From assembly GCA_947365965.1 (NCBI GenBank), contig CANAZG010000018.1, forward strand, positions 1 to 42,644: DNA of 42,644 nucleotides, written 5' to 3'. Below, piece after piece: positions 3,030 to 42,644 of the stretch. The position numbers and the translations under genes were made by a program. The notes beneath the pieces are model-generated. The model ran no database searches. It was not told where the DNA came from and saw nothing but the letters and a program-made list of their open reading frames with translations. The number at the start of each line of letters is the position of its first letter. Position 1 is the first letter of the stretch. This DNA comes from an uncultured Clostridia bacterium (GTDB lineage: Bacteria > Bacillota > Clostridia > Oscillospirales > Oscillospiraceae).

Positions 3030-3065
3030 CTCGCTTTCCCCCGTTTTTGTCTGTTGTGAACTGTG

Positions 3066-4274: not shown

Positions 4275-4290
4275 CAGCAATCTCCTTTTG

Positions 4291-4327
4291 TCGAACGCCG
4301 CGGGAGGAGCGCCTCCCGCGGCTTCGA
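4291..4327 (-). promoter_or_regulatory. Strong stem-loop between binding-protein and amidohydrolase genes
   Basis: GCCGCGGGAGG (4297-4307) pairs with CCTCCCGCGGC (4312-4322), and TCGAA/TTCGA extends the stem past a one-base bulge. On the transcribed strand it is followed by an A-rich sequence and the next ribosome binding site, not a T-run. It is better read as an mRNA 3'-end stabiliser or leaky terminator that keeps binding-protein transcript high. Confidence 0.6.
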
Positions 4328-4347
4328 CTGTCCGTTTCTTGTTTATC

Positions 4348-8375: not shown

Positions 8376-9353
8376 CTAACCTCCCTTCTTGTTGAAATCC
8401 AGTTCCTCCGCGTAGTGGCATTTGCACAGCTTATTCAGCCGCACCCGCCGGGAGTCCGGCTTCTCTCTTCCGCACAGCTCTGCGGCGTAGGCGCACCGGG
8501 GCGAAAAGGGACAGCCGGCCGGCATGTCCGCCAGATTCGGCGCGCCGCCTGGGATCTGGGCCAGCGTGGAGAGGGGCTTGTGGAGGGAGGGAAAGGATCC
8601 CACCAGGGCATGGGTGTAGGGGTGGTTGTTCTGGATCAGGACGTCCTTGGACCGGCCCTGCTCCATGATCTCCCCGCCGTACATCACGGCGATGCTGCGG
8701 CAGGCCTCCGCCACGGCGGAGATGTCGTGGGAGATCATGACAATGCTGATGTTGAACTCATCCTGGAGCCCCGCCAGCAGCTCGATGACCTGGCGCTGGG
8801 CCACCACATCCAGGGCGGTGGTTGGCTCGTCGGCAATGAGGATCTTCGGGCTGCAAATCAGGGCCAGCGCAATCACCGCCCGCTGCTTCATGCCGCCTGA
8901 GAACTCATGGGGATACTGCATCAGCCGGGATTTGGCGATGCCCACCCGCTCAAACAGGTACTCCGCCCGCTCAATGGCCTCCTTTTTGCTCACATCCTCG
9001 TGCTCCCGCAGGGCGTTGATGATCTGATCGCCGATCTTCTGAACGGGATTGAGGGCGGTCATCGCGTTCTGGAAGATGATGGAGATATCCTTCCAGCGGA
9101 CCTTGCGGATCTCGTCGTAGGAGGCGGCCGCCAGATCCACGCCGTTGAGCAGGATCTGCCCCTCGGAGATGGACCCGTTGCTGGCCAGCAGGCGCATCAG
9201 CGCGAAGGCTGTGGTGGATTTTCCGCAGCCGGACTCCCCCACCAGGCCCAGGCTGTCCCGCTCGCCCAGGGAGAAGCTGACGTTGTTCACAGCCCGCAGG
9301 GTCTGTCTGCCCACCTTAAAATCAACGGACAGATTTTTTACTTCAAGCAACAT
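8376..9353 (-). CDS. dppD: Peptide ABC transporter ATPase (DppD-like)
   Basis: This 325-residue ATPase subunit is the partner of the next gene. Walker A GESGCGKST sits near residue 40, signature FSGGMKQRAVIALAL near 155, Walker B ILIADEPTTALD, and IVMISHD contains the switch histidine. The C-terminal oligopeptide-transporter domain carries the cysteine pattern CPFSPRCAYAAELC. It is separated from the permease gene upstream by 15 bp, with a GAGAGGGGGA ribosome binding site. Two non-identical ATPases after two permeases is the classic dpp/opp layout. Confidence 0.92.
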   Translation of the reverse strand: MLLEVKNLSVDFKVGRQTLRAVNNVSFSLGERDSLGLVGESGCGKSTTAFALMRLLASNGSISEGQILLNGVDLAAASYDEIRKVRWKDISIIFQNAMTALNPVQKIGDQIINALREHEDVSKKEAIERAEYLFERVGIAKSRLMQYPHEFSGGMKQRAVIALALICSPKILIADEPTTALDVVAQRQVIELLAGLQDEFNISIVMISHDISAVAEACRSIAVMYGGEIMEQGRSKDVLIQNNHPYTHALVGSFPSLHKPLSTLAQIPGGAPNLADMPAGCPFSPRCAYAAELCGREKPDSRRVRLNKLCKCHYAEELDFNKKGG

Positions 9354-9368
9354 AGCGCGTCCCCCTCT

Positions 9369-10196
9369 CTATTCCATTGCGGCCTGCTTCACGTTCAGCG
9401 TCTTATGCAGGGCCGTTCCAATCAGGTTGAAGGCCAGCAGCAGCAGCGCCAGGGCGATGCCGGGGTAGATGACAAGCCAGGGCGCGGAGTTGATGTGCTT
9501 CTGTCCCGCGTTAAGGATCAGACCCCAGGAGGCCCGGTTGGGATCCCCCAGGCCCAGGAAGGACAGGGAGGCCTCCGTCAGCACGGCCTGGGCCATCTGG
9601 AGAATGGAGTTGGAGAGAACGGGGCCCATGCCGTTGGGCACGATGTGCTTGAAGAGGATGCCCAGCTTGGTTCCGCCCGCCACATTGCCCGCCTGGACAT
9701 AGCCCCTGCTCTTGAGGGTCAGCACCTGGGCGCGCATGATCTTGGCGTTGGAGGGCCAGATGGTGATGCCGATGATGATGACCATCAGGCCCACGGAGGA
9801 CCCGAAGAAGGCCACCATCAAAATGACCAGGAACGTTCTGGGGATAATGTAGAACAGCTCAAAAATGCGGCACATCAGATCGTCAAACCAGCCGCCGATA
9901 TACCCGGACAGCGCCCCCAGCACAATGCCGACAATCAGCGACAGCAGCGACGCGCCGAAGGCGAAGATGATGGAGATCCTGCTGCCCCACACCAGCATCG
10001 CCCAGACGTCCCGGCCCAGGTAGTCCGTGCCCATGATAAAATCTCCGCCCGGCGCCTGGAGGGGCTTTCCCACAGAGAACAGAGGGTTGCCCGGGCAGAT
10101 GACGGGGGCCAGCGCGGCCAGTCCCAGCATAATCACCAGGATCACCAGCCCTGTCACCGTCTGCGGATTCGTTAAGAATGACTTCAGCTTTTTCAT
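9369..10196 (-). CDS. dppC: Peptide ABC transporter permease (DppC-like)
   Basis: This 275-residue inner-membrane permease is of the DppC/OppC type. It has an N-terminal helix (TGLVILVIMLGLAALAPVI), the family loop with MGTDYLGRDVWAMLVWGSR near residues 55-75, further helices with GALSGYIGGWFDDLMCRI, and the EAA-type cytoplasmic loop in AGNVAGGTKLGILFKHIVPN. It forms the translocation pore with DppB. Its ATG overlaps the TAA of dppB by one base (TAATG), indicating translational coupling. Confidence 0.92.
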   Translation of the reverse strand: MKKLKSFLTNPQTVTGLVILVIMLGLAALAPVICPGNPLFSVGKPLQAPGGDFIMGTDYLGRDVWAMLVWGSRISIIFAFGASLLSLIVGIVLGALSGYIGGWFDDLMCRIFELFYIIPRTFLVILMVAFFGSSVGLMVIIIGITIWPSNAKIMRAQVLTLKSRGYVQAGNVAGGTKLGILFKHIVPNGMGPVLSNSILQMAQAVLTEASLSFLGLGDPNRASWGLILNAGQKHINSAPWLVIYPGIALALLLLAFNLIGTALHKTLNVKQAAME

Positions 10197-11155
10197 TATT
10201 CTGCCACCACCCTCGGATCAAGATACATGTAGATGATATCTGTGATAAAGCCTCCCACAACAACCATGATCGCGGACACCAGGAACCCGCCCATAATCAC
10301 CGGGTAGTCCCGCCCGGCGATGGCGTCGTAGACCATGCGCCCCATGCCGGGCCAGGAGAACACCGTCTCCGTCAGCAGTGCGCCGTTGAACAGGGTGCTC
10401 AGGCTCATCCCGGCCTGGGTTACTGTCGGCAGCAGGGCGTTTCGCAGCGCGTGCTTGCGGTAGACCACCCGCTCGGAGTAGCCGATGGCCCTGGCGGTGT
10501 TGATGAAGTCCTCCTGCGCCACCTCCACAACGGAGGACCGGGCCAGCTTCAGATACGTGGGAATCCGGATCAGGGAGAGGGTCAGGCAGGGGAGGAACAT
10601 ATGGTGGAGCATGTCCATCAGCGGACTGAGGGGCGTGTTGAAGCTCTGCATGCCAGAGGTGGGGAACCACTTCAGATTGATGGCAAAGAGCAGCATCAGC
10701 ATCATACCGAGCCAGAACGCAGGCATGCAGTAGAGCACCATGGAGAGGTTGGAGATGATGTGGTCCTGAATGCGGTTTTCGTGCTTTGCCGCCGTCATCC
10801 CCAGCAGGGTGCCGAGGACGATGGCGATTATCTCGCTGAGCAGCACCAGCGCCAGCGTGACCTTCATCTTCTCCGCCAGGAGCTCGCTCACCGGGAGCTT
10901 AAGCAGGAAGGAGTTGCCCAGATTCCCCTGGAGAGTGTTCTTGACGTAGATCAGCAGCTGCTGCCACAGGGGCAGGTCCAGCCCGAACTGGGCCTTCAGC
11001 TCCGCGATGTACTCGTCCGTGGCCGTTTCTCCGGCCATAATCGTGGCCGGATCACCGGGCGCCAGGTGGATGATGAGAAAGCAGAGGCAGATGATGGTCA
11101 GAATAACCGGCACCATCTGCAGGAGCCTCCGCAGGACGTACTTACCAAATTTCAC
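10196..11155 (-). CDS. dppB: Peptide ABC transporter permease (DppB-like)
   Basis: This 319-residue integral membrane subunit is of the DppB/OppB type. It opens with the family signature of a first helix (LLQMVPVILTIICLCFLIIH) followed directly by LAPGDPA. About six helices follow, with the EAA-like loop ARAIGYSERVVYRKHALRNA and a C-terminal ETVFSWPGMGRM block. The start is a GTG at 11155, with AGGAG ten bases upstream. The gene begins 23 bp after the GntR regulator and overlaps dppC. Confidence 0.92.
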   Translation of the reverse strand: MKFGKYVLRRLLQMVPVILTIICLCFLIIHLAPGDPATIMAGETATDEYIAELKAQFGLDLPLWQQLLIYVKNTLQGNLGNSFLLKLPVSELLAEKMKVTLALVLLSEIIAIVLGTLLGMTAAKHENRIQDHIISNLSMVLYCMPAFWLGMMLMLLFAINLKWFPTSGMQSFNTPLSPLMDMLHHMFLPCLTLSLIRIPTYLKLARSSVVEVAQEDFINTARAIGYSERVVYRKHALRNALLPTVTQAGMSLSTLFNGALLTETVFSWPGMGRMVYDAIAGRDYPVIMGGFLVSAIMVVVGGFITDIIYMYLDPRVVAE

Positions 11156-20004: not shown

Positions 20005-21090
20005 CTAAACAAACTCGCGCTTAAATCGGATTTTGACCAATATTCTGCCAACTGTATAAACACTTCCATGCTCATACAAACATTCCATCAGACGCCCCCA
20101 CCAATGCGTGCTCTTTTTGTAAACGGGAAGTGGTTGTTTCCCCGTCCACTCGCACACATCCCGCAGGAATCTCTGGATTGACTGCGTAAACATATGCGGC
20201 CTATACTCCTGTTTTTCTATTGCCACCCGGAGCTCCTCTGAAAATCTCCTGGTCATTTCAATCTGCCCCGCAGCATCTACCTTGGATAGAATAAACATGT
20301 AGATGCAGACTTTCCGCTTAAACAGGTAGGGTGCAAATCGGACACACAACTCCCGGTCCTGCTGTAATCTGGCATAATTGTCCGCATACTCCTCACATAT
20401 TGCGGAAAATTTTTCTGTCTGCATCATGGATGAACCCGGGTTGTCCCTGCGGATATTATAGAATTTACGCGGAATAAACATGCAGTTCTCCGCGTTGATA
20501 AATATCTGAAACCACATGCCCGTATCCTGATAAAGCGCCCCGGGAGTTTCTCTCAATACAATCCTTTTGTCCAGAAGAAACTTCCGCCGGTAAATGCCCG
20601 TCACATTCATCATTTCTGCATCAAGCAGCCAGGGCATTTTGCAGGGATGGAGAATGCGCCCATACCAACTGAGCCTGGGACAAATCATCACTCTTTCAAA
20701 AATGCGTTTCTCTGCGTCTCCCCTGAAAAACGCGCAGTCAGCCTTGACAAAGTCCAGCGAGTGCCTGCTTGCCGCTGCATACAATTTTTCAAACATTTGG
20801 TTTTCAATGTAGTCATCCGGCTCCACGATGGCGACATACTCGCCCCTGGCTTCTTGGATCCCCACATTGACCGCCCGGCCATACCCTGCATTTTTCTGAT
20901 CGATTATCCGTATCCGCCTATCCCTCGCCGCATATTCCCGCAGGATGTCCCCGGAGCGGTCCGTCGAGCCATCATTGACGCAAACCACCTCGATATCGGT
21001 CAGGCTCTGGTGTATAATGCTATTCATGCATTCCCGGAGATATCTTTCAACATTATAAGTTGGAACTATGACAGAAATCTTACACATCAT
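20005..21090 (-). CDS. GT2 family glycosyltransferase
   Basis: This 361-residue GT-A transferase opens with ISVIVPTYNVERYLRECMNS, has VCVNDGSTDRSGDIL and GRAVNVGIQEARGEY, and its metal-binding acidic motif reads EPDDY instead of the more usual DSDDW. The C-terminal half contains MNVTGIYRRKFLL and a tryptophan-rich tail. No membrane helix is seen. It lies 8 bp after the UDP-galactopyranose mutase gene, so it is a candidate galactofuranosyltransferase by position only. Linkage cannot be inferred. Confidence 0.85.
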   Translation of the reverse strand: MMCKISVIVPTYNVERYLRECMNSIIHQSLTDIEVVCVNDGSTDRSGDILREYAARDRRIRIIDQKNAGYGRAVNVGIQEARGEYVAIVEPDDYIENQMFEKLYAAASRHSLDFVKADCAFFRGDAEKRIFERVMICPRLSWYGRILHPCKMPWLLDAEMMNVTGIYRRKFLLDKRIVLRETPGALYQDTGMWFQIFINAENCMFIPRKFYNIRRDNPGSSMMQTEKFSAICEEYADNYARLQQDRELCVRFAPYLFKRKVCIYMFILSKVDAAGQIEMTRRFSEELRVAIEKQEYRPHMFTQSIQRFLRDVCEWTGKQPLPVYKKSTHWWGRLMECLYEHGSVYTVGRILVKIRFKREFV

Positions 21091-21098
21091 GCCCCCTG

Positions 21099-22196
21099 TT
21101 AACGTGCAGATTCCTCACGCGCAAGGGACAGCGCCGAACGTATCGTATCCTGCATATCATAGTATCGGTATTCACCCAGCCGCCCGCCAAACAGGACATG
21201 CTTCTCCCGCACTGCTAACTGTGCATACTGCTCATATCTTGCCTGATTTTTTTCATCATTGATGGGATAATACGGCTCGATGTCCCGGTTCCACTCCAAT
21301 GGATACTCTCTGGAAATTACTGTTGTTGGCTGTGTACCAAAAGCGAAGTGCTTGTGTTCAATAACCCTGGTATAGGGTGTTTCCCGGTCAGTATAGTTGA
21401 CAACAGCCACGCCTTGGTAATTATCCGTATCCAACTCCTCGTGTTCAAACCGCAAGCTTCTGTACTCCAAAGGGCCATAACAGTAATGAAAATAGCTGTC
21501 GATTGTTCCTGTATACAGGAGTTTCCCTGCGAGCTTGCGGTATTGCTCCGGAGAACGCGTGAAATCCGTATTCAAACGGATTTCACAGCCGCTGAGCATC
21601 TTCTCGATCATCTGCGTATAACCCTCAATCGGAATCCCCTGGTATGGATCATTGAAATAATTATTATCATAAGTAAAACGGACCGGGAGCCGGCGAATAA
21701 TGGAGGCTGGAAGCTCCGAACAGGGCCTGCCCCACTGCTTTTCTGTGTATCCCTTCACCAGAATATTGTAGACGTCCTGGCCAACCAGACTGATTGCCTG
21801 CTCCTCCAGATTTTGGGGCGCTCCGATAATCTCCGCCCGCTGGCGGGATATTATCTCTCTGGCCTGCGCCGGCGTGGATATATTCCACATTTTGCTGAAA
21901 GTATTCATATTGAAGGGCATGTTGTAGATCTGCCCATGATAGTTTGCAATCGGACTGTTGATAAAATGATTGAATTCGGTAAACTGCCGGACATATTCCC
22001 ATATCTCTTTGCTTGAGGTTCGAAAAATGTGCGCACCGTATTGATGTACCTGGATTCCGCTCCAGTCCCGGGTATAGCAGTTGCCGCCGATATGATTCCG
22101 CCTCTCCAGCACAAGGCACGTTTTCCCGGCCTTCACCATCTCATGTGCAAACACCGCGCCATAGAGCCCCGCTCCGACAATCAAATAGTCAAACAT
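21099..22196 (-). CDS. glf: UDP-galactopyranose mutase
   Basis: This 365-residue FAD enzyme converts UDP-galactopyranose to UDP-galactofuranose. The N-terminal dinucleotide fold reads LIVGAGLYGAVFAHEM, followed by LERRNHIGGNCYTRD and the mutase signature QYGAHIFRTSSKEIW. Later blocks include NTFSKMWNI, GYTEKQWGRP, NDPYQGIPIEGYTQM and the C-terminal LFGGRLGEYRYYDMQD. I chose the ATG at 22196, which overlaps the preceding TAA (TAATG) with AGGGAGG upstream. It is direct evidence that the glycan made here contains galactofuranose, unless another locus uses the product. Confidence 0.95.
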   Translation of the reverse strand: MFDYLIVGAGLYGAVFAHEMVKAGKTCLVLERRNHIGGNCYTRDWSGIQVHQYGAHIFRTSSKEIWEYVRQFTEFNHFINSPIANYHGQIYNMPFNMNTFSKMWNISTPAQAREIISRQRAEIIGAPQNLEEQAISLVGQDVYNILVKGYTEKQWGRPCSELPASIIRRLPVRFTYDNNYFNDPYQGIPIEGYTQMIEKMLSGCEIRLNTDFTRSPEQYRKLAGKLLYTGTIDSYFHYCYGPLEYRSLRFEHEELDTDNYQGVAVVNYTDRETPYTRVIEHKHFAFGTQPTTVISREYPLEWNRDIEPYYPINDEKNQARYEQYAQLAVREKHVLFGGRLGEYRYYDMQDTIRSALSLAREESAR

Positions 22197-23179
22197 TATG
22201 TTCCTCCCTTTATTCCGGACCATTTTCTTAATCCGCAGTACAATTTGGGCCACAGCGCCACAAAAGAGTACTTCAGCTTTATTTTGACAGGTAGCGGGGA
22301 ACGCAGGACTTTCCACATACCGAAGCGCATTCTGCATATCAGTCTTTTGCTCTCATCCCGCATGGCTCCCGCCCTCAGCAAACGAAGCAGGATTTCCATA
22401 CATTCCGTTTGCTCTCTCGCGCCGCAGAGTCTGACAGCCGCAGCGGAATGACACACTGTGCGCACCCCCTTCAGCGCCTCAAACGCTGTCATTCTTCTTT
22501 GGAGCCATTCCATGGAAACAGACAGGCTCCCCACGGTGCTTGCGGCATGCTGCCGGTAGTGGTAGGTTGCCTGATTGATGCAAAAAAGTGTTTTACACAG
22601 GTTGAAATAGCTTGCGCAAAACAGCATATCCTCCATATAGGTTACATCTTCTCTGAACTGGATTTTTGCTCCCCGGATCGTAGAAAGCCGGAACATTTTA
22701 TTGCATACAGATCCCAGGATACCAAACGGTGAAAGCAGCTGCTCCATAGCTGTATCCGCAGAAAATTCTTCTGATTTTTCCGCTTTTTGCGCTATAGAAG
22801 ATTTCTGCTCCTCAACCCAATACCCGCAGATGCTGCAATCGCAGTTTTCGATTCCACGCACTAAAATTTCAACGTGCTCAGGCGCTACCCAGTCATCTGA
22901 ATCAACAAACGTAACCAGCTGCCCGGCCGCACTTTCTATCCCTGCGTTTCGCGCACAGGAGACCCCTCTGTTTTCCTGATGGATCACCCGCATTCGAAAA
23001 TCTCTTTGGACATATTCCTCACAGATGGAGCCGCTCATATCCGGCGAACCGTCATCAATCAGGATGATCTCCATCCTCGTGTAGCTCTGCGCAAGAATGC
23101 TGTCCAGGCATTTACGGAGAAACGGTTCCGCCTGATAAACCGGAACAATTATGCTGACCAACGGTTCTATCACTCGCAT
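22196..23179 (-). CDS. GT2 family glycosyltransferase
   Basis: This 327-residue GT-A transferase starts at ATG 23179 (MRVIEPLVSIIVPVYQAE), ten bases inside the end of the upstream GT32 gene. It shows LIDDGSPDMSGSICEEY, NAGIESAAGQLVTF and the DxD-like VDSDDWV near residue 90. An alpha-helical C-terminal half ends in basic residues. A longer upstream in-frame reading exists but lies on top of the GT32 coding sequence and is rejected. It is translationally coupled to glf. Confidence 0.87.
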   Translation of the reverse strand: MRVIEPLVSIIVPVYQAEPFLRKCLDSILAQSYTRMEIILIDDGSPDMSGSICEEYVQRDFRMRVIHQENRGVSCARNAGIESAAGQLVTFVDSDDWVAPEHVEILVRGIENCDCSICGYWVEEQKSSIAQKAEKSEEFSADTAMEQLLSPFGILGSVCNKMFRLSTIRGAKIQFREDVTYMEDMLFCASYFNLCKTLFCINQATYHYRQHAASTVGSLSVSMEWLQRRMTAFEALKGVRTVCHSAAAVRLCGAREQTECMEILLRLLRAGAMRDESKRLICRMRFGMWKVLRSPLPVKIKLKYSFVALWPKLYCGLRKWSGIKGGT

Positions 23180-23883
23180 CGCCTCAACAACTTTTTTAGC
23201 TTTCGTGTGTTTTCCACGCCAATATATTGGGCAATTTTTGTATGGAATCTCTGCCTGGGCGTCATCCAGGACCCTGCAAAGTGGTGGATTGCCGCAGATT
23301 GTTCTGACAGGCGCAGCTTTCCGGTCTGCAAATCCAACGGGCAGAATACATCCGGAGGATAAATGGTAATATTCGAAACACACTGCGTTAATCCGTTTTG
23401 GCGAAGTCCTCTGCGGCACAGTATATCCGTCAGCCAGGTGGTGTTCGTTGTACAGTCACAATTGCCATCAGCCGTACAAAAAACTCTCTTATCGTACTCT
23501 CTGGCTGCCCAACTGAAAAAGGGGTGTCCGGGAACACACCCCATCACGCATGTCGCAACATTCTGCCGGCTTTCAAAGCCTATAAATCCAGCCTGATTGA
23601 TAAATCTGTCCAGCGGCTTCAGCAGCTCCACATCTGTATCCAGGTAAACGCCGCCGTATTCTGACAGAATCCGCAGGCGTACATAATCTGAGACAAACGC
23701 CCACTTTTTCATGCGGTAAGCCTCTTTAACATAGTCATTATCATTAACCGGAGAGTTCGTCTCATTCCAAAATACAATCTCATAGTCGGGACAAGCGCGA
23801 GACCAGCTTGCAGCGCAGCTTTGCTCCAGTTTTCCCAGGGGGCGGCTGCCAAACCAGCAGCAATGAATTTTTTGGGGTATCAT
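23170..23883 (-). CDS. GT32 (OCH1/capsule-type) glycosyltransferase
   Basis: This 237-residue transferase begins MIPQKIHCCWFGSRPLGKLE, the GT32 opening, followed by the conserved WAFVSDYVRLRILSEYGGVY and the metal-binding DTD in YLDTDVELLKPL (near residue 82). Such enzymes usually add mannose, galactose or related hexoses to capsular or lipid-linked glycans. No membrane segment is seen. It starts 6 bp after the preceding GT2 gene and overlaps the next one. Confidence 0.88.
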   Translation of the reverse strand: MIPQKIHCCWFGSRPLGKLEQSCAASWSRACPDYEIVFWNETNSPVNDNDYVKEAYRMKKWAFVSDYVRLRILSEYGGVYLDTDVELLKPLDRFINQAGFIGFESRQNVATCVMGCVPGHPFFSWAAREYDKRVFCTADGNCDCTTNTTWLTDILCRRGLRQNGLTQCVSNITIYPPDVFCPLDLQTGKLRLSEQSAAIHHFAGSWMTPRQRFHTKIAQYIGVENTRKLKKLLRRCE

Positions 23884-23889
23884 AGAATC

Positions 23890-24732
23890 TCACCACAATT
23901 TGTGCAGACTGCATATCTTTGCCTTGATTTCCCACTGCCACTGTTTCAGAATCCTCATAAAGCATCGAGGGATTGCGCATAAAATCATCGGTTTCATTAA
24001 ATAGATGTAGTCGCGCAGGGGGGCCTTCATTTTTCGCAAGCCATATATCCGCACACAAATCTCATACCATCTGGTTTGAAAAGTATGTTTCCGATAGGCA
24101 TCCGCCGGTTCATAGACATAGTACAGGCACTCCTGTAAATTCTTCCCAATCATTCCCTCTGCCGCCAAACGCATTACAAGATCATAATCCTCTGTACGCC
24201 GGGTTTCTTTGGCAACCCGATATCCGTTAGCTGAAGCGATAATTGCTCTTTTGAAGATCATTGTAGGATGAAAAAAGGGATTGTACTGCGCAATCATGTG
24301 TTTTGTAATGACCTCTGGAAACATCCGCTTACTCCAAATGGACGTATCATCAAATATGCAGACTCCACAGCCAGCATAAGGGCAGTCATTTTTCCTCAGA
24401 TACGCCAAAGTCTTCTCCAGCCTGTCCGGTGATGATATGTCGTCGGCATCCTGCCGTGCAATATACTCTCCTGACGCGAGCCTGAGGCAATGATTCAGAG
24501 AGGCCGCAAGCCCCAAATTCTTTTCATTTCTGAACGCTTGAATTTTTTCACTGCCGGCACTATAGCCGGAAATAATATCCCAACTGCGGTCACTGGACCC
24601 ATCGTCGCAAATGACAAACTCAAAGTCCTCTTCAGTCTGATTTAAGATAGATTCAATCGCCTTGGGCAAGGTTGGTTCCGCATTGTAGACACTCATCAAA
24701 ACGGAAACAAGCGGCTTTTTATCCTCCCTCAT
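23890..24732 (-). CDS. GT2 family glycosyltransferase
   Basis: This 280-residue GT-A transferase reads VSVLMSVYNAEPTLPKAIES, then ICDDGSSDRSWDIISGY, GLAASLNHCLRLASGEYIAR and QDADD as its acidic metal-binding motif (near residue 85). RRTEDYDLVMRLAAEG is a typical acceptor-side block. The C-terminus is basic and aromatic and may sit on the membrane. The ATG at 24732 lies 14 bp inside the end of the Wzt gene, so the pair is coupled. It is the first sugar-adding gene after the exporter, but its place in the assembly order is unknown. Confidence 0.86.
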   Translation of the reverse strand: MREDKKPLVSVLMSVYNAEPTLPKAIESILNQTEEDFEFVICDDGSSDRSWDIISGYSAGSEKIQAFRNEKNLGLAASLNHCLRLASGEYIARQDADDISSPDRLEKTLAYLRKNDCPYAGCGVCIFDDTSIWSKRMFPEVITKHMIAQYNPFFHPTMIFKRAIIASANGYRVAKETRRTEDYDLVMRLAAEGMIGKNLQECLYYVYEPADAYRKHTFQTRWYEICVRIYGLRKMKAPLRDYIYLMKPMILCAIPRCFMRILKQWQWEIKAKICSLHKLW

Positions 24733-25450
24733 AGGCGTCGCACACTTCCTGTGCTTCTCCTCCCATCTTGACCCGTCCATACTCCAGCCAGACCACGCGC
24801 CCGCACATTTCCCGCACCTGACTCAGGCTGTGGGACACAAAGAGCACCGTCGTTCCCCCGCCCATGAGCTCCAGCATCCGTCTTTTGCTTTTCTCCTGAA
24901 ACGCTGCGTCCCCTACTGCCAAAATCTCGTCCACAATCAGGACCTCCGGCTGCACCATCGTAGCTACCGAAAACGCCAGCCTTGCCAGCATTCCAGAGGA
25001 GTAATTCCGAATGGGTGTCTCAATGAAGTTCCCTAGTTCAGAAAACTCCACAATTTCGTCATATTTGGCGTTCAGAAAGTCCTCGCTGTATCCCAGGATC
25101 GCGCCGTTGAGAAAAATGTTCTCCCGTCCGGTCAGGTCAAAATCAAATCCCGATCCCAGCTCCAGCATAGGCACCACATTCCCGCAGCATACTACATTTC
25201 CCTCCGTAGGCTTCAAGATCCCGGAGATGATTTTCAGCATCGTGCTCTTTCCCGCGCCGTTTCGCCCGATTAACCCCAGTGTCTCGCCCCGTTTCACTGT
25301 GAACGACACATGGTCCAGTGCCGTAAACTCCTGATATTGCAGCTTTCCCCGCATCGCGGTGGTCACAAATTCCTTCAACGACATAATTTTATCGCTGTTC
25401 ATCCGGAACCGCATGGATACGTCCGATACTTCAATCACAGTTCTGCTCAT
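24719..25450 (-). CDS. wzt: Polysaccharide ABC exporter ATPase (Wzt/TagH-like)
   Basis: This 243-residue ATPase is of the glycan-export branch. Walker A is GRNGAGKST (near residue 63), the signature YSSGMLARLAFSVA is the Wzt/TagH form, Walker B is VLIVDEILAVGD, and LFVSHS carries the switch histidine. FDFDLTGRENIFLNG is the family G-loop region. The protein ends right after the ATPase core, so it lacks the C-terminal carbohydrate-binding domain found in many Wzt proteins that recognise the glycan end. It lies 9 bp after the permease gene. Confidence 0.92.
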   Translation of the reverse strand: MSRTVIEVSDVSMRFRMNSDKIMSLKEFVTTAMRGKLQYQEFTALDHVSFTVKRGETLGLIGRNGAGKSTMLKIISGILKPTEGNVVCCGNVVPMLELGSGFDFDLTGRENIFLNGAILGYSEDFLNAKYDEIVEFSELGNFIETPIRNYSSGMLARLAFSVATMVQPEVLIVDEILAVGDAAFQEKSKRRMLELMGGGTTVLFVSHSLSQVREMCGRVVWLEYGRVKMGGEAQEVCDAYEGG

Positions 25451-25459
25451 TACATACCC

Positions 25460-26935
25460 TCACAGATACAGGACAAACCTGTCCTGACTTTTCTGGAAAA
25501 CCAGCGCGCCAATCAGCAGGGAGCCTAATGCCATCAGCGTGCACTGGACATATACCGACGGCTCCGGCGAAATGCCGTTCAGAATGCAAAGCCGGATGTT
25601 TTGCAGAAAATGATACATAGGATTAACCCGCAGAATAAACCTAAAGTCCTCCGGCAGGATGCTCTCCGGATAAAAGATCGGCGTCACATACATCCATATC
25701 ATACTTAATACGCCCCACAGGAATTGGGTATCCCGGAAAAATACCATTGCCGCCGACAGGAGCAGTCCCACGCCCAGGCTGAAAATAATTACACAGCAGA
25801 AGAAAAAAAGCGACAAAACCGCAGATTTCCTGAATTCAATTCCTGTTGCCAGAGAAACAAGCACCAGAGGAATCAGGGAGATCCCCAGATTCACGACGGA
25901 GGACATGACACGTGTAAGCGGATAAATATATTTAGGCATATAGACCTTGGTAATTAGGCCGGCATTTCCCACGATAGAGCTCAGCGCCATACCGCTGGCT
26001 TCCGTGAAGAAGTTAAAGGTTACAATGCCGATCAGCAGATACGCCGGATAATTGGGAATGTCGCTTTTGAAAATGGTGGAGAAGACAAAATACTGTACAA
26101 ACATGGTCAGCAGCGGGTTAAGAAAACTCCAGAACATTCCCAGGACAGAGCGTTTGTACTTGGTCTTAAAGTCTCTGGATACCAGCTGACGAATCAGAAA
26201 ACGGTACTTCTGCACCGCAGCCACAGCGTTGACCACATAGCTGCGCCTGCCCTGTCGCAGGCGCAGCCATATCACGCCCAGCCCCGCCAGCAGCAGCAGC
26301 TCTCCTGCTGCTGCAAACTCCCAGTAGTGCAGGCCCGTCCAGATATAATCCGTACCTTTGACCGCAAAGCAAAGCACACCTTCTGACGGCTCCCCGTTAA
26401 GGGTCAGACTGCCGCCCTCCAGCTTCTCCTGCGTATTCATCAGCGGCGAGGCCGCGCTGCCGACCGCACAGTCCGGAGAGGTAATCCGCAGCAGCAGCGG
26501 AACATTGTATAATCCTTCTATTGGTTCCTCCGCTGTCAGCGTGGTCAACCCACCCTCGGTAATGGCGGCGGCATCGAAAGCACCCGACAGCAGCACGCTG
26601 CTGTCCCGCAGGTCCATCAGCTCCAGCAGAACAGTTCCAGCATTCGGCCGGTAATAGGTCCCCCATTGCACGTCAATCTGCTCCAGCCGCTGAATCGTTG
26701 TTATGAAGCTTTGCTCCACAACACTTCCCGCTGTCAGCTCCACTGTCCCGCTGTCTGCTGCTGGCAATTCCCTGTTTCCTCTTGACTGACGCAAATGTAA
26801 CTGTTCTCCAACCAGAAAATAAAACAGGATAATCAAGGCAGCGTATCCCAGGAGGAGCATGACAGCCAGCCGCCGTATTATCCGAAGATTTTCTGCTGCT
26901 TCGTTGTTTACTGATTTATTTTGCAATAATCTCAC
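25460..26935 (-). CDS. wzm: Polysaccharide ABC exporter permease (Wzm/TagG-like) with extra extracellular domain
   Basis: This is a 491-residue protein, while ordinary Wzm/TagG permeases have about 260. An N-terminal helix (LAVMLLLGYAALIILFYFLV) is followed by roughly 180 extracellular residues with a beta-sandwich-like pattern, a second helix near GELLLLAGLGVIWLRL, then a complete ABC-2 permease starting FLIRQLVSRDFKTKYKRSVL. The permease has the usual helices and the GVLSMIWMYVTPIFYPESIL block. The GTG at 26935 overlaps the stop of the recombinase-like gene (GTGA); GTG 26947 and TTG 26926 are alternatives. The extra domain could bind the exported glycan, replacing the domain missing from Wzt (inference). 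Confidence 0.87.
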   Translation of the reverse strand: MRLLQNKSVNNEAAENLRIIRRLAVMLLLGYAALIILFYFLVGEQLHLRQSRGNRELPAADSGTVELTAGSVVEQSFITTIQRLEQIDVQWGTYYRPNAGTVLLELMDLRDSSVLLSGAFDAAAITEGGLTTLTAEEPIEGLYNVPLLLRITSPDCAVGSAASPLMNTQEKLEGGSLTLNGEPSEGVLCFAVKGTDYIWTGLHYWEFAAAGELLLLAGLGVIWLRLRQGRRSYVVNAVAAVQKYRFLIRQLVSRDFKTKYKRSVLGMFWSFLNPLLTMFVQYFVFSTIFKSDIPNYPAYLLIGIVTFNFFTEASGMALSSIVGNAGLITKVYMPKYIYPLTRVMSSVVNLGISLIPLVLVSLATGIEFRKSAVLSLFFFCCVIIFSLGVGLLLSAAMVFFRDTQFLWGVLSMIWMYVTPIFYPESILPEDFRFILRVNPMYHFLQNIRLCILNGISPEPSVYVQCTLMALGSLLIGALVFQKSQDRFVLYL

Positions 26936-27801
26936 CGCTCTTCCCACCCAATTTCCAACTGCTCCTGCTCCAGCAGGCGACTGTGGGCCTGCTCCACCAG
27001 CAGGGCGATGTTGTCCTCAATCCCCGCCCGGGTGGTCTGATACAGCCGCTTTAAGCACCGGGGGTTGCCCTTCTCCTCCGGCACCTTCGCCGCTGTGCAC
27101 AGCTGACGGATGATGGTGCTCACGTAGGTGCGGCTCATGGGCGTGCCGTCCTTGGTGAGGAAGATGGGGCCGGAGAGGCAGCCGTTTCGCCGTGCGTAGT
27201 CCAGCAGTTCCGCCTGTAGGCCCTCCGGGATACGCAGCACCTGTTTATTCCGGCTGAAAGTGACCGTCAGCTTACCCTCTCTCACCGACTCCACTGTTAC
27301 CTTCTCTAATTCCTGCACAGTCAACCCCGTGGTACCGAACAGCTTCACCAGCAGGTACACCCTTTCCCGGCCTAACGCCCGGGCCGTTTGCAGCAGCCGC
27401 AGGTACTCCGTCCGCGTCAGCTCCGGCTGGAGCTCCGTCTCCAGCTTCAACTGATTAGCCAGCTGGTACTCCCGGTGGCCGACAAAGTCCAGATAGGCGT
27501 TGTTCACTGAGAGGTAGCTGTTGATGGTACTGGGGGCGTAGCCCGCCTTCACCAAATGCTCACGCCAGCGCTCCAGGGTACCGTGGCAGATGATTTTGTC
27601 CTCCGGGAGGTCATCATAGAGGCGGTTCAAGCCCCGGCGATACCATTTTAATGTGCCCTCCACACGTCCTTCGTTCTGGCAGACAGTCATAAACCGCTCT
27701 ATGCCATCTCGGGTCAAACGTACGCCCGCATCCGGCACTTGGCTATGCCGATGCCGTTGCTGGCTGTAGCCCCTCTGAATGTGCTGTCTCGTTTGCGGCA
27801 T
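26932..27801 (-). CDS. Catalytically degenerate tyrosine-recombinase-like protein
   Basis: This 289-residue protein has the two-domain layout of phage-type integrases: a SAM-like core-binding region (about 30-115) and a catalytic-like domain from 128. It is clearly paralogous to the intact recombinase next door (EYLRLLQTARALGRERVYLL against EYLRLLETANHLGRKRLALL). The catalytic set is gone: Thr161 replaces Arg I (TTGLTVQEL), RCLKR (248-252) replaces HxLRH, and the GH...Y end is missing. The lysine-like K186 remains. The ATG at 27801 has GGGAGG six bases upstream. Its stop overlaps the start of the exporter permease, so it is the first gene of the glycan operon. It likely works as a DNA-binding regulator. 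Confidence 0.8.
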   Translation of the reverse strand: MPQTRQHIQRGYSQQRHRHSQVPDAGVRLTRDGIERFMTVCQNEGRVEGTLKWYRRGLNRLYDDLPEDKIICHGTLERWREHLVKAGYAPSTINSYLSVNNAYLDFVGHREYQLANQLKLETELQPELTRTEYLRLLQTARALGRERVYLLVKLFGTTGLTVQELEKVTVESVREGKLTVTFSRNKQVLRIPEGLQAELLDYARRNGCLSGPIFLTKDGTPMSRTYVSTIIRQLCTAAKVPEEKGNPRCLKRLYQTTRAGIEDNIALLVEQAHSRLLEQEQLEIGWEER

Positions 27802-28105
27802 AGATACCTCCCTCTTGGTTCATCACAGACTTAATAGACCGCCCTGTTTCTTCATGGATTTTTGGGGGCTACAGGCCGCAAAATCCCCGCGCAAAATGCG
27901 CGGGGGTAGAAAAAGGCATAGAAATATAAGCCGGTCATCCAGTATTGTTGACCGGCAGGATTTGTTACGCGAAAAAACAGGGAAATGGGCTTGCATTCCC
28001 CTATCTTTTGTGATAGGATACCTACAGTCCTCAAAGTTCATCATAACTGAGGATCTGTTTTTATTACCTTTTGAGGCAACTTATTAATTTTGTCTATTTT
28101 GGGGG
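27802..28105 (-). promoter_or_regulatory. Structured leader between the two recombinase genes
   Basis: This 304 bp spacer holds three separate inverted repeats: CCCCGCGC/GCGCGGGG (27885-27905, 5-nt loop), GCCGGTC/GACCGGC (27930-27956, 13-nt loop) and CCTATC/GATAGG (28000-28017, 6-nt loop). On the transcribed strand the first is followed by ATTTTGC, weakly terminator-like. A poor promoter (TCAACA, 17 bp, TATATT) overlaps the middle repeat. The stretch ends with GGGAGG before the glycan operon's first gene. It is a plausible site of conditional termination or recombinase-like protein binding. Confidence 0.5.
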
Positions 28106-28951
28106 TTAAGAAATAAGTCCCAATCTCTCTAACTGACGAGCGTGCTCCACGCCAGTGGAGATGAGGTAGATACGGGTAGTCTCGATACTGGAATGGCCCA
28201 GTACATCCGCCAACTTCGCCACATCTCGACAGACCCGGTAGAAAGTTCTAGCAAACAGATGCCGCAGGTTGTGGGGAAATACTTTCGAGGGAACCACGTT
28301 GGCTTTTTTGCATAGCGCCTTCATCTCTGCCCAGATTTGACGGCGGGAGATGCCTTTGCCGCTTCTGGTGAGAAAGAGCTCGCCGGAAGTGATTTTTTCC
28401 TTTTTCGCATATTTTTGCAGCTTACGGCACAGCTTGCCAGGCAGAAGGACGGTACGGATTTTTCCTTTCAATGCAATATCTGCACGACCTGCACGGACCG
28501 CCTCTGCTGTTATATATCTCACCTCCGATACGCGGATACCCGTGGCGCAGATGGTTTCGATGAGTAAAGCAAGCCTTTTCCTACCTAAGTGATTAGCTGT
28601 CTCCAATAGGCGAAGATATTCCTCTTTGGTCAGTTCTTTCTCTGTATCGCGAAATAGCTTTCTCTGAATTTTTAGGTACTTTATCCGCAACTCCTGCCGC
28701 CCCACACTCTTGAAAAACTTATTCAGTGCGGAGAGCTTGGAATTGATGGTTTCCGGCTTATAACCTTCATCTCGTAAATAATTTTTCCAATTAGCCACCA
28801 TCTCTGCTGTTATCGGCCTCCCCGCCAACCAGTGCGTGAAGAATCGCACTTCACGTATGTATTTTTCTATCGTACTCTGTTCGCGTTCTTCTGACCTTAA
28901 CTGATGCTTGAATGAGATGAGTTGTCCGCCTGTCAGGGTGTGACTGTCCAT
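28106..28951 (-). CDS. Tyrosine recombinase, catalytically intact
   Basis: This recombinase of 281 residues keeps the full active site. Numbered from ATG 28951: Arg140 (ATGIRVSEV), the beta-hairpin lysine in ALKGKIRTVLLP, His227/Arg230 in HNLRHLF, His253 in LGHSSIETT and nucleophile Tyr262 (TRIY). The core-binding domain covers about residues 10-90. A TTG at 28969 would add six residues but would touch a palindrome; GGAGG lies 11 bases before the ATG. It resembles phase-variation or element integrases. Lying just upstream of the glycan operon on the same strand, with a palindrome at its 5' end, it is a candidate for DNA inversion or local integration. Confidence 0.87.
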   Translation of the reverse strand: MDSHTLTGGQLISFKHQLRSEEREQSTIEKYIREVRFFTHWLAGRPITAEMVANWKNYLRDEGYKPETINSKLSALNKFFKSVGRQELRIKYLKIQRKLFRDTEKELTKEEYLRLLETANHLGRKRLALLIETICATGIRVSEVRYITAEAVRAGRADIALKGKIRTVLLPGKLCRKLQKYAKKEKITSGELFLTRSGKGISRRQIWAEMKALCKKANVVPSKVFPHNLRHLFARTFYRVCRDVAKLADVLGHSSIETTRIYLISTGVEHARQLERLGLIS

Positions 28952-28967
28952 TGTGTAAGCTGCCTCC

Positions 28968-29003
28968 AATCAAGTAAAATGGTATGTCCCATTTTACTTG
29001 ATT
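28968..29003. promoter_or_regulatory. 15-6-15 bp perfect palindrome, candidate recombination site
   Basis: AATCAAGTAAAATGG (28968-28982) and its exact complement (28989-29003) flank a 6-bp spacer. This is the geometry of a core site for a tyrosine recombinase (two arms around a 6-8 bp crossover). It sits 16 bp upstream of the recombinase ATG. It is not followed by a T-run in either direction, so a terminator is less likely. I found no second exact copy in the window. Confidence 0.5.
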
Positions 29004-29350
29004 GAGGATTTTATGTAAAATTCTTCTCGGTGTGTCTCTTTCCTTGGTACGGTTAAAGGATAGCCGGAGTTGGGAGGCGGGGCCTGAGAAAACGTAGTAA
29101 GCAGGGCGGATGTTAATACATCTGCAATTTGCTTGTTGGGGGCAGCAACCGCATTCCTCATACTCATTTGCTGGGCCCGGGAGATGGATGGTACGGCCTT
29201 CTCCCGCACCATCGCCTCGTCCACTCGTATTTGTTCGTCCGGCATCAGGTAGGACAGCTTTACCGCTGTAGTCAGGGCCAGTGTTCCCTCATCTACCAAC
29301 TTGCTGGCATGTTTGCGCCAGTGGCCAGACACGATCCTCATTCCTGGGGG
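29004..29350 (-). pseudogene. Decayed ParB-like gene, copy B
   Basis: The minus-strand frame reads [20 protein letters not shown], then [19 protein letters not shown] and [12 protein letters not shown], the middle and C-terminal parts of a ParB-like protein from an integrative element. It lacks the N-terminal ParB motif because about 170 bp present in copy A are missing. By chance its frame is continuous with the collagen-like gene upstream, giving one chimeric reading of 325 codons (29971-28994). Confidence 0.65.
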
Positions 29351-29602
29351 CGGACAATGGCCGGTGTAAATACGCCGTATGCCCGGACGCTCTCCACTCT
29401 GTGTTTTGGATATAAGAAAAAGGGAGAATGCGGTATGATGCTGCATTCTCCCTGAAGAAGCCATATGGACCTCGTTGAGTATTATATATGAAAACACCGC
29501 CCATAGTCTCCACAGGGCGGTGTTCCGTGTAATGTGATAGATTTTATTGTCATATTGCGATATTTTTTGCAGTTTTATGCATTTTCCTATTAAAAACGTT
29601 CC
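29253..29602. repeat. Direct repeat copy B (parB remnant plus structured leader)
   Basis: Homologous to 12598-13118 and in the same orientation. It keeps the hairpin GGGAGAATGC/GCATTCTCCC and a 10-bp hairpin AACACCGCCC/GGGCGGTGTT that has decayed in copy A. It ends at the same edge (TCCTATTAAAAACGT), which here breaks into the collagen-like gene. The two copies bracket about 16 kb holding the whole glycan operon. Confidence 0.8.
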
Positions 29603-29971
29603 GGTGGGGCCGATCGGACCGGCAGGGCCAGCGGGACCCGTTGCCCCAGTCGCGCCCGTAGCGCCGGTGGCTCCCGTCACACCGGCAGGACCGGCAGGAC
29701 CAGTGGGACCTGTCGCCCCAGTCGCGCCCGTGGCGCCCCTTGCGCCGGTAGCTCCCGTGGCGCCTGTCGCGCCGGTTGCCCCCGTAGCTCCCGTTGCCCC
29801 GGTGGGGCCAACAGGACCAATCGGACCCATAGGTCCCATGGGACCGGCGGGACCGGGCAGACCCCGGGGACCCATGGGTCCCGGAGGGCCGGGGACGTAG
29901 CAGACCGTATCGCAGGGGTCGCAGCAGGGACTTCCGCAGCAGCGGTCGGATTCGTAACGATTGTATCGCAT
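29603..29971 (-). pseudogene. Collagen-like repeat protein, truncated
   Basis: From ATG 29971 (GGGAGG ten bases upstream) the protein has a cysteine-rich start ([15 protein letters not shown]) and then about 95 residues of uninterrupted Gly-X-Y triplets, first GPP/GPM/GPA types and then GAT runs. This resembles exosporium or surface collagen-like proteins of spore-forming Firmicutes. Such proteins end in a globular domain, which is missing: the triplets stop at GPTGT, exactly where repeat copy B begins, and the frame runs on through non-homologous sequence. Probably inactivated, although a chimeric protein could still be made. Confidence 0.75.
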
Positions 29972-39840: not shown

Positions 39841-41030
39841 CTATGCGCCTTGCCGTTTCGGTTGCGTGACAGAAAGGAAATTGATTTCCCCTACAAAATT
39901 GAAAACAATATCTACTTTCTGTACCCGTTTCCCGTCCACCTTTTCCGGCGCATGGACTATGATTTTCTTGATAAATTCATTGACGATTGTGGGGGTGAGT
40001 TCCTTTATCCCCACATACTTGCGGATAATCGCGGCGAAGCTGTCAAAATCGCTTTTGTTCTGTTCGTAGGTATCGACTTCCTGCTGGTCTGCCTTGACCT
40101 TTTCTTCCAGTTCCCGCTGTTCCGCTTCATACTCTGCGGACAGCTTCAAAAACCTGTCGTGGCTGATTGCGCCGCTTATGTCGTCCTCATAAATCCGCTT
40201 GAAGATACGGTCAAGTTCTACAATCCGTTTTTTTGCCTGTCCGACTTCCCGTTTTCTGCGCTTCATTTCCTTTTCCGTTTCGGCAGAGCGTTGTGCGTAC
40301 ATCATTTCATGGAAAGCCATGATGTCATCAAAGAAAAGGGCAGTCACATCAAATATCCTGCCCCACACTATCTGCTTCAACACTTCCTCGCGGATAAAGT
40401 GAGCCGTACAGCTTCCCGTATTGCTCTTGTACTTTGCACAGCGGTAATGGTCTTGTGAACCGTTAAAACTTTTACAAGTAGCGAAATGTAGCTTACTCCC
40501 ACAGTCCGCACAATATACCAAGCCGGAAAACAATCCCTGTCTGTCCGCTTTTGTGGGGCGGCGTTTGTTTGCCCTTAGTTCCTGCACCCGTTCAAAAACT
40601 GCGTCTTCCACAATCGCTTCATGGGTATTATAGAAAACCGCCTGCTGTTCCTTTGTGGTAGGAATCCGCTTTTTCAGCTTGTGGGATTTGGAATAGCTTT
40701 TGAAGTTCACCGTATGCCCGCAGTAGTCCATACGCTCCAAAATACCGACAATGGTACTATCTCTCCAATCATAGGGATTTTCGGGAAGTGCTTTCCCCTT
40801 TTTCTTTGCGTAGTGGGCTTTGGCAGTCAGTACCTTATCTTCTTTGAGGATTTTTGCTATCTGCATAGGTCCTTTCCCACCGATACATAAATCAAAAATG
40901 CGTTTCACCACAGCGGCGGCTTCCTCGTCCACAATCCATAGCTTTTTGTCCGCAGAGCTTACCATGTAGCCATAGGGCGGCTTTGTCAGATGTTCCCCCG
41001 CCTGTCCTTGCGCCCGCTTTTCCGTATCCT
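39841..41030 (-). pseudogene. TnpX-like large serine recombinase lacking its catalytic domain
   Basis: The minus-strand reading from about 41,030 to TAG at 39841 carries the recombinase domain (LTKPPYGYMVSSADKKLWIV, DEEAAAVVKRIFDL), the zinc ribbon (LVYCADCGSKLHF with a second pair in DHYRCAKYKSNTGSC), a long coiled coil and the DUF4368-type end (ELTPTIVNEFIKKIIVHAPE). The N-terminal resolvase domain with the catalytic serine is absent. The frame is instead fused, near GEHL, to the tail of another recombinase, giving a chimeric 439-codon frame. It cannot recombine DNA alone. Confidence 0.8.
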
Positions 41031-41485
41031 CCGGCAACGCCAGCGCCTGTTCCATCAGCACCGCCTGTTCCGCCGTCAGGGCCGTCAGCCGCTGCCGCAG
41101 GGCGAGGGGATCAACCCCGCCGCACTCCTGTCCCTGCTGGACAAGGCTGGCGATGTCCAAGAACTCCTCCGTGATCTCCTGCCCGGTTTGGTCGAGGCCG
41201 TTGATGGCCTCCAGGATGAAAGGTTTCGCTGCCGATCAGGACAGGGTAATCATCGGCGCCCATGTAACGCTCATTTCTGAGGATAAACGAGATCCTGAAC
41301 TTGGTCCACACAGGCCGCTCCGGGCTGTAGAGAATGCCCTCGGCGTTCAGCGTGTCCGATATCTCCCGCTGTAGGTTTCCTTCGAGGTAGAGGCCGAACA
41401 CCCTGCTGACCACCGCCGCCTCCTGGGGCTGGGGAACCAGCTTCCCGTCCATGATCTGATAGCCGTACAGCACCTTCCGATTCAT
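41031..41485 (-). pseudogene. Second-subunit recombinase fragment with internal deletion
   Basis: The ATG at 41485 overlaps the upstream stop (ATGA). The first part reads KVLYGYQIMDGKLVPQPQE, AAVVSRVFGLYLEG and ILRNERYMGADDYPVLIGSE, a recombinase domain without a catalytic domain, as in the accessory recombinases that follow some large serine recombinases. Near 41,220 the frame breaks. The true continuation is in another frame (FILEAINGLDQTGQEI, ASLVQQGQECGG, LTALTAEQAVLMEQALALP), then joins the TnpX-like remnant. Two rearrangements are visible. Confidence 0.65.
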
Positions 41486-42644
41486 CTCTCGTCCTCCCCG
41501 ATTTGTTCCGTTACCTCGATGCCGCCGTACAGCCGAAACCGCAGGGCAGTGGGGCTGGCCACGATCTGCTCGACCAGCTCCGCAAACAGGGCTTCATCGA
41601 ATTTCTCCAGCCGTTCCGGGCCTTGGCGGATGGTGTCTGCCGTCTGGCGCAGGGCCTCCGCCGCCTCGCCAATGTCATCATTCTTCAGCAGCCTCCGGCG
41701 CTTGGCCCGGAGTTGGGTCAGTTGTGCGTTATTGACCGCCATCTGGGCGGCGCAGGCGTCCGCATCCAGCAGGCCGTTGGCGCGGAGCTTACTGATCTTA
41801 TAGCCGCGCTCGGTGGCCTGGGCGATGGCCTGGTTGACCTCCAGCATGGCGGGGTTGCCCCGCTGCAGGGCTGTCTCCAGTGAATCCATCTGACTCAGGG
41901 CGGGCCGCAGGATGACGCCCTCATGGAGCCTCAGCTTGTTGTACATCCGCAGGAAGGCGGCGTAGATGGCCTCCTCCGGGATGGGGCCTGTCGCACAGTT
42001 GGAGGCTTTCCGCTGGTGGCGGCCACAACTCCAGGTGGCGGAGCCTTTCCGGGTCACATGGCGGTAAAGTGTGAAACCGCAGATCCCGCAGCACATTTTC
42101 CGGGACAGCGGGTAGACTCCATCCGGGCCGTAGATTTTCTTCTTTTTCATTGCCCGCAGGGCCTGGGCCTTGTCGAACACCTCCCGGCTGACGATAGCGG
42201 GGTGGGTCCCCTCCACATAGAATTGGTCCACCTCGCCCTGGTTGATCTTCTGGACGAAGGGAAAGCCGGTTTTGTAGGTTTTTTGGCAGAGGGTATCGCC
42301 CACATATTTCTCATTGGACAGCCAGTAGTAGATTTCCCTGGTGGTCCAGTGGACGTTGCCCTTTCGATCCCGGATGCCCCGGCGGATCAGCTCATTGGCA
42401 ATGTCTTTGGCACTTTTTCCGCCGAGGTAGGCGTCAAATACCCATCGGATGATCTCCGCCTCCTCCGGGACGATCTCCAGATCCCTCCGGTTTACCAGCC
42501 GGTAGCCGTAGGGGGCTTTCGTTGTGATGAACTCGCCCCGCTCCATTCTCCGGCGATAGCTCTGATGGCTATTCTGCGAGATGGAGATGGACTTTGCCGC
42601 GTTCCTCCGGCTGATGGAAGAGTCCGGCTTTGCCGTCAAGCGCG
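41482..42644 (-). CDS. Large serine recombinase, 5' end outside the window
   Basis: The frame is open to the right edge, so the gene starts beyond 42644. Visible are the end of the resolvase linker (SISISQNSHQSYRRRMERGE), the recombinase domain (TTKAPYGYRLVNRRDLEIV, WLSNEKYVGDTLCQKTYKTG), the zinc ribbon (MCCGICGFTLYRH and a later Cys pair near RKASNC) and a long helical C-terminus. The catalytic serine region would lie outside. It overlaps the accessory recombinase fragment by 4 bp. The source is an integrative element, and activity cannot be judged here. Confidence 0.8.
   Translation of the reverse strand, partial: RLTAKPDSSISRRNAAKSISISQNSHQSYRRRMERGEFITTKAPYGYRLVNRRDLEIVPEEAEIIRWVFDAYLGGKSAKDIANELIRRGIRDRKGNVHWTTREIYYWLSNEKYVGDTLCQKTYKTGFPFVQKINQGEVDQFYVEGTHPAIVSREVFDKAQALRAMKKKKIYGPDGVYPLSRKMCCGICGFTLYRHVTRKGSATWSCGRHQRKASNCATGPIPEEAIYAAFLRMYNKLRLHEGVILRPALSQMDSLETALQRGNPAMLEVNQAIAQATERGYKISKLRANGLLDADACAAQMAVNNAQLTQLRAKRRRLLKNDDIGEAAEALRQTADTIRQGPERLEKFDEALFAELVEQIVASPTALRFRLYGGIEVTEQIGEDER

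Follow-up and report, generated by a model that had tools for sequence, protein, structure and literature searches.

Sequence comparison suggests that gut Clostridia switch their operons for sugar coats and surface proteins through a promoter flipped by a working recombinase; such an operon often begins with a conserved but catalytically dead relative of that enzyme, which is probably a DNA-binding regulator. The locus described here lies in a stretch of 42,644 nucleotides (the window; contig CANAZG010000018.1, C18 of genome G000) from the draft genome, 76.6% complete, of an uncultured bacterium of the family Oscillospiraceae (order Oscillospirales), in which a tandem pair of tyrosine-recombinase-like genes precedes an ABC exporter and glycosyltransferases, all on the minus strand according to open reading frames (ORFs) and Pfam matches (Table 1). 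The order seen when such loci are compared is an active recombinase gene, a repeat-flanked segment present in both orientations, and then the dead gene with its surface operon. An original prediction, made from the window sequence alone, had placed two recombinases in tandem before the exporter, and both ORFs are found where it put them; it overlooked the centre of the locus, the 304-bp gap separating the active from the dead gene, which is very probably an invertible promoter (inverton) module.

The gap between the recombinase genes

Four active/inverton/dead sets are present in all in this genome, on the window contig and on contigs C56, C66, and C144. When their gaps were aligned, those of the window, C66, and C144 shared one orientation, while C56 had collinear outer flanks and a reversed inner part; the inner segment of the window matched that of C56, reversed, at 81.5% identity over 151 bp (E 4e-34). 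The gap is read as an inverton because this comparison of paralogues shows the inner segment in both orientations. The promoter-like element of the window is conserved on the same side in C66 and reversed in C56, and a similar one is found in C144. Since this element is directed at the operon in C56 but away from it in the window, C56 was called ON and the window OFF. The hairpin site of the window scores as a terminator in C66, where it is accompanied by a T run. Three properties of the window weigh against this interpretation: the repeats are imperfect, being identical to each other at 13 of 19 positions, the promoter is weak by consensus score, and the hairpin scores below the terminator threshold. 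A scan for consensus promoters in the window missed the TTGCAT-17-TAGGAT element and gave just one other weak site, on the opposite strand and directed toward the dead gene, where 0.7 would be expected by chance. Similarly, the generic repeat search did not select the terminal repeats of the window, C144, or C56, and in C66 it selected a different pair. In the OFF state, the promoter would drive antisense transcription (27991-28106) into the active gene from its 3' end, which could reduce expression of the invertase.

The protein encoded upstream of the gap matches the Pfam family Phage_integrase, and all eight inspected positions (R, E, K, H, R, H, H, and Y) are kept, in agreement with the original prediction that R, K, H/R, H, and Y remain; the same eight residues are intact in 42/42 active relatives. 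Judged by its residues, the upstream gene encodes an intact and catalytically competent tyrosine recombinase, the presumed invertase. The active copies within the genome are 81-88% identical, with a dN/dS of 0.056-0.142 among the four, some dS values being near saturation. In 39 of the 42 active proteins, 19 residues follow the Tyr; the active gene of locus L120 is split over two frames and was left uncorrected. Directly upstream of the ribosome-binding site of the active gene in the window lies a perfect 16-6-16 palindrome (28967-29004), which is possibly an operator or a leader hairpin controlling the invertase, and hairpins with GGTAAAAT or GGTAGAAT precede the active gene in at least L062, L069, and L075.

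A recombinase family without catalytic residues

The dead protein of the window scored 0.0024 against Phage_integrase, under the family cut-off. It has T161 at Arg I and RCLKR in place of HxLRH, and the terminal Tyr is missing, as had been predicted, together with Lys and His-III; the Arg I, Lys, His-II, Arg II, His-III, and Tyr columns are occupied by T, N, R, K, S, and E. A good ribosome-binding site (GAGGGAGG) and the GTGA overlap of its stop with a start of the exporter permease, both also predicted, are present in the sequence, although the latter is one possible start and the mechanical ORF caller picks an earlier GTG for the exporter. Relatives were collected with a profile made from eight dead proteins; 94 candidates passed and 80 loci were kept, which with the eight starting loci and after removal of three duplicates (L059, L066, and L109) gave 85 distinct dead loci. 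Tyr, His-II, and His-III are absent at their columns in 85/85 of these proteins (in L118 and L132 a Tyr stands one column off the catalytic position), and none of the dead ORFs across the 85 loci contains HxxRH or LGH..Y. Arg I is retained in 38 of them and Lys in three, the window protein having neither. By contrast, the basic residues R130, R224, and K244 stay, both His residues of HxLRH are mostly replaced by Arg or Lys, and a C-terminal GW motif is found in 85/85; the dead proteins are 13 residues shorter (median) from the His-II column to the C-terminus.

The dead copies of the genome are 89-92% identical, and the dN/dS of the dead gene among the four is 0.062-0.092 (0.065-0.080 for the window gene against its three paralogues), with some dS near saturation; by this measure, the dead gene is under strong purifying selection. 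When 85 dead, 42 active, and 9 other recombinases were placed in one tree, the dead proteins formed one clade (support 0.78) that includes no active member, and the active proteins formed another (support 0.94). An AlphaFold model of the dead protein, computed with 67 sequences (pLDDT 90), has the integrase fold, its final part being one unbroken helix (residues 247-284), and the structures matching it are Xer, Int, and Cre enzymes followed, lower in the ranking, by the phage repressors SroF, MrpR, and YopR. The dead protein is thereby modelled as a tyrosine recombinase fold with a core-binding and a catalytic domain. Purifying selection and an integrase fold were among the checks that the original prediction had named, and both bear it out. 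Taken from these sequences, the downstream gene is a separate, conserved recombinase family without catalytic residues. An origin as an inserted phage gene was rejected, as only 1 of 50,697 phage records matched at E 1e-8 (31% over residues 49-270) in a search that had plasmids outside its scope.

Several departures from the common form were observed. Short dead forms of 170-182 aa, lacking the N-terminal domain, occur in L108, L112, L115, L119, and L136; glycosyltransferase-like genes follow them in all but L119, where none was called. Extra dead-type ORFs are present in L077 and L080. In L050, at 7512-7736 (G000:C34:17511-17735), what is left of a dead gene, a C-terminal piece of 75 residues with one stop, lies near another glycan/exporter cluster; this locus has no tyrosine recombinase of the dead/active family and carries a serine-recombinase-like ORF (8905-10722) on the other strand. 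To judge from its sequence, the remnant is probably a lost switch. Two further features border the window locus or the window itself: immediately before the switch, a collagen-like repeat ORF (28994-29971; PF01391) with an unrelated tail at its end, and at the window end (39841-42639), two serine recombinase ORFs (PF07508).

Table 1. Positions of the switch, the recombinase genes, and the operon in the window.
Feature	Position	Strand	Evidence or remark
Active tyrosine recombinase, presumed invertase	28106..28951 (from ATG; to 28969 with an upstream TTG as start)	-	PF00589 9.8e-25
Inverted repeat beside active gene	28075..28093		ACAAAATTAATAAGTTGCC in gene orientation; breakpoint of collinear/inverted alignment with C56
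Inverted repeat beside dead gene	27825..27843		ACAGACTTAATAGACCGCC on + strand; second alignment breakpoint
Invertible segment, about 269 bp including repeats	27825..28093		Inner part reversed relative to C56
Likely promoter TTGCAT-17-TAGGAT, TG before -10	27991..28019	+	Reads toward active gene
GC-rich hairpin, likely terminator between active gene and operon in OFF state	27885..27905	-	Sequence
Catalytically dead tyrosine recombinase, first gene of operon, 289 aa	26932..27801	-	Residues, dN/dS, AlphaFold
ABC-2 exporter permease	25460..26947	-	PF01061 5e-20
ABC exporter ATPase	24719..25450	-	PF00005 2.2e-21
Glycan genes: glycosyltransferases and UDP-galactopyranose mutase	20005..24780	-	PF00535, PF04488, PF03275

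Distribution of the module and its downstream genes

Going by record titles, most of the 80 loci kept from the scan belong to Oscillospiraceae and Lachnospiraceae; culturable carriers among them include Oscillibacter valericigenes An411 and Pseudoflavonifractor capillosus An827. An active gene lies immediately upstream of the dead gene in 46/85 loci and in 41 of the 65 testable ones, defined by more than 1.5 kb of DNA upstream of the dead gene. The three further pairs in the window genome and the 85 distinct dead loci take the original observation beyond chance. The active-dead gap measures 270-375 bp in 37 of the 46 loci, and 35 of the 45 gaps tested contain a repeat pair unmatched by any of 30 shuffles, many of the form ACARAAT-n-ATTYTGT. 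Nine of 27 alignable gap pairs match on opposite strands. A further 60 loci of the order were added, 55 selected as dead-less and five dead-bearing; the repeats exceeded their own shuffles in 49 of the 52 that were analysable. The best promoter lies 45-110 bp from the edge it faces in 32/37 dead-bearing and 43/46 dead-less invertons, as compared with 25% and 32% of shuffles. A site profile scored above the 95th control percentile in 43 of the 44 loci with an active gene and in 9 of the other 29, a test that is partly circular because the profile was built from those same loci. Contig ends cluster in the first 300 bp ahead of the dead gene, with 10 there vs. 3, 2, and 3 in the following bins, which is a hint only of both orientations in one clonal population.

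A glycan operon follows the dead gene in 4/4 copies of the window genome, which agrees with the predicted link to such operons, but elsewhere, secreted proteins and other genes also follow, so the dead gene is not confined to them as far as the sequences tell. Downstream genes were assigned by simple rules, and among the 61 loci with a called first gene behind the dead gene there were nine of glycosyltransferase 2, seven ABC-2 permeases, three nucleotidyltransferases, six VWA, and four BTAD; 30 of the 61 had a signal peptide by a rough rule. Glycan-type first genes were more frequent behind dead-bearing than dead-less invertons (19/61 vs. 2/42, p 0.001), the two samples being drawn differently: the 19 are three Pfam rows summed, and the 2 are the glycan-type rows within the 25 of 58 families shown. 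DUF4379 zinc-finger-like proteins were seen in 7/42 first genes behind dead-less invertons (L175, L176, L178, L184, L209, L212, and L215), and BTAD/Trans_reg_C regulators directly after the dead gene in L111, L121, L122, and L123, confirmed in L122 and read from the sequence in the rest.

Each of the two recombinase genes also occurs without the other. Invertase and inverton are found where the dead gene is lacking, such as in two genomes from the genus of Ca. Intestinimonas pullistercoris, and dead-less invertons of this family also precede surface genes. Across 297 genomes of the order, with no more than eight candidates scored per genome, matches above 200 bits and read as dead were found in at least 7, and wider-family matches in at least 88. 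Conversely, no active gene adjoins the dead gene in 24 of the 65 testable loci, which are scattered over the tree. In L074, a serine resolvase flanks the dead gene and there is a 163-bp repeat pair. L108 and L112, on the same contig, share a 147-bp segment that is 94.6% identical, lies in opposite orientations, and has a different repeat type (GTATAC-type); L115, L119, and L136 carry this same segment, reversed relative to L108. A 158-bp repeat pair is present in L118 and L132, the L118 score only equalling its best shuffle, and L073, L102, and L106 have each kept one tyrosine-type site. The remaining 13 of the 24 showed no recognisable inverton, a repeat pair farther upstream in L127 not being counted as one. 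Among 14 draft genomes with partnerless loci, G354, G359, G363, and G365 gave only dead-type matches, as judged by score and extent. In L085, another integrase-like protein (3054-4343; PF00589 7e-7), which also weakly matches the C-terminal domain of a regulator, is encoded directly upstream of the dead gene. The ON:OFF counts were 10:22 with and 13:30 without the dead gene (p 1.0), with the entry for L047 unreliable owing to an inner segment miscut by the hand rule (138 bp), and L229 and L230, where a dead gene lies farther downstream, entered as dead-less. Because the counts are alike, no ON- or OFF-locking by the dead gene is visible in assemblies, and such locking was ruled out at that level.

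Possible roles of the dead protein and known systems

In the mechanism proposed here, the active enzyme would recombine the two repeats, so that the outward-facing promoter would read into the operon in the ON state and away from it in OFF. The hairpin would shield the operon against read-through in OFF, and in ON the dead recombinase would be the first protein made. Less surely, this protein would no longer be a recombinase and could serve as an MrpR-like regulator reporting that the locus is ON, acting on the switch or promoter regions of its own or of sister loci. That it regulates by binding DNA and is expressed together with the operon in the ON state seems to us the probable reading; it was ranked above a pure invertase partner because the dead gene also occurs without the invertase. 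Its persistence without the partner, beside a serine resolvase and behind another inverted segment, suggests that it is probably more than an invertase subunit. A tentative extension is mutual exclusion, where each dead protein would be produced only while its own locus is ON and would then hold sister loci OFF or lock its own switch. It can be put forward with similar reserve that such a network would have evolved from the invertase itself and be independent of which invertase flips the promoter.

A role as an inversion modulator appears doubtful. Here the dead protein would bind the same repeats, form mixed complexes with the invertase, and lower or bias inversion once ON; lacking the residues after Tyr that would form a docking helix, it would break the cyclic tetramer. 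Cyclic docking of the C-terminal helix into the neighbouring subunit is described for XerH in the available part of the report (PMC5241119), and the 19 residues after Tyr in 39/42 active proteins, set beside the shorter C-terminal part of the dead ones, fit this idea, as do the sampled tree, in which the dead family is sister to the invertases, and the adjacency of the two genes in 41/65 testable loci. Distances among active and dead proteins also correlate (Mantel r 0.48, 0/2000 permutations), for which common ancestry alone could suffice. However, the 24 loci with no adjoining active gene, the four genomes in which all matches read as dead-type, the serine resolvase in L074, and the similar ON:OFF counts with and without the dead gene argue against it, and the directionality partner that the original prediction offered beside a regulator is therefore unlikely to be the whole story. 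Less likely is a local activator or antiterminator aiding transcription of its own long operon by a UpxY-like logic. The dead gene does head long operons and is kept whatever invertase serves them, and UpxY is likewise a first gene according to the text available (PMC7315117), but surface genes also lie behind invertons of this family that lack the dead gene, the fold of the protein is that of an integrase, and the listed Pfam matches of the dead protein and of 67 members of its family include no NusG domain. A decaying passenger from tandem duplication is very improbable: the catalytic residues are gone, C34 holds a C-terminal fragment with a stop, and L077 and L080 have extra dead-type ORFs, but the single clade with its own GW motif in 85/85 and the retention where the partner is gone oppose it, and random decay was ruled out by a dN/dS below 0.1 among the own copies.

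For the DNA-binding regulator that we prefer, and that the original prediction had suggested, a solved precedent exists by analogy. MrpR/YopR of prophage SPbeta (PDB 8A0A, 8BJ6) also combines a tyrosine-recombinase fold with lost recombinase function; according to the accessible text, MrpR is a former recombinase that represses a prophage as a DNA-binding protein, and its authors expect further cases (PMC10516654). MrpR keeps Lys and Tyr and controls a prophage (PMC10516654), whereas the dead protein here has neither and its gene follows an inverton. Compared with MrpR, the predicted C-terminus is one long helix and the nearest sampled relatives are local invertases. SroF of phi3T (PDB 9RD5, 9RGL), another structural match, is called a repressor in the title of its entry.

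The control device itself is an invertible promoter, a kind of module already known (PMC11892184), and the original prediction was incomplete in this respect. UpxY and UpxZ are not known to be recombinase-like, UpxY being a NusG-like antiterminator, unlike the putative regulator here, which is a sibling of the invertase. In Clostridioides difficile, the single recombinase RecV serves several switches. As here, RecV inverts a switch upstream of a surface operon, and the available portions of the reports mention no dead paralogue (PMC5386303, PMC7446863). The Upx loci of Bacteroides resemble the present ones in having invertible promoters and capsule operons headed by regulators, UpxY and UpxZ being the first genes; in the excerpted text UpxZ represses non-adjacent loci, while trans-inhibition is only a proposal here (PMC7315117). 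Inverton group 139, paired with tyrosine invertase group 35, is likewise clostridial and has a tyrosine recombinase next to the inverton; for this group the consulted sections give 32 of 33 members in Clostridia, a tie to a tyrosine recombinase group, and orientation shifts in reads (PMC11892184). Its example from I. butyriciproducens, with 14-nt repeats spanning 255 bp, is similar to the present loci in geometry; in contrast, those sections name its recombinase family non-regulatable and mention no dead paralogue behind the promoter (PMC11892184). No report of a dead recombinase as the first gene behind an invertible promoter was found in titles and abstract openings, with preprints and most subscription journals outside the search.

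Phase-variable coats shape the encounters of gut bacteria with phages and immunity. Rules of cross-talk between surface loci are known for Bacteroides (UpxY, UpxZ), and Clostridia now have a concrete module and a marker gene, found at no fewer than 80 loci in a single capped scan, with the dead recombinase as a candidate for cross-talk between clostridial surface loci. Recombinases turned regulators, for which the precedent comes from phages, thereby gain a case that is chromosomal and spans many species. If mutual exclusion were true, a dedicated family of dead recombinases would coordinate many phase-variable surface loci in gut Clostridia.

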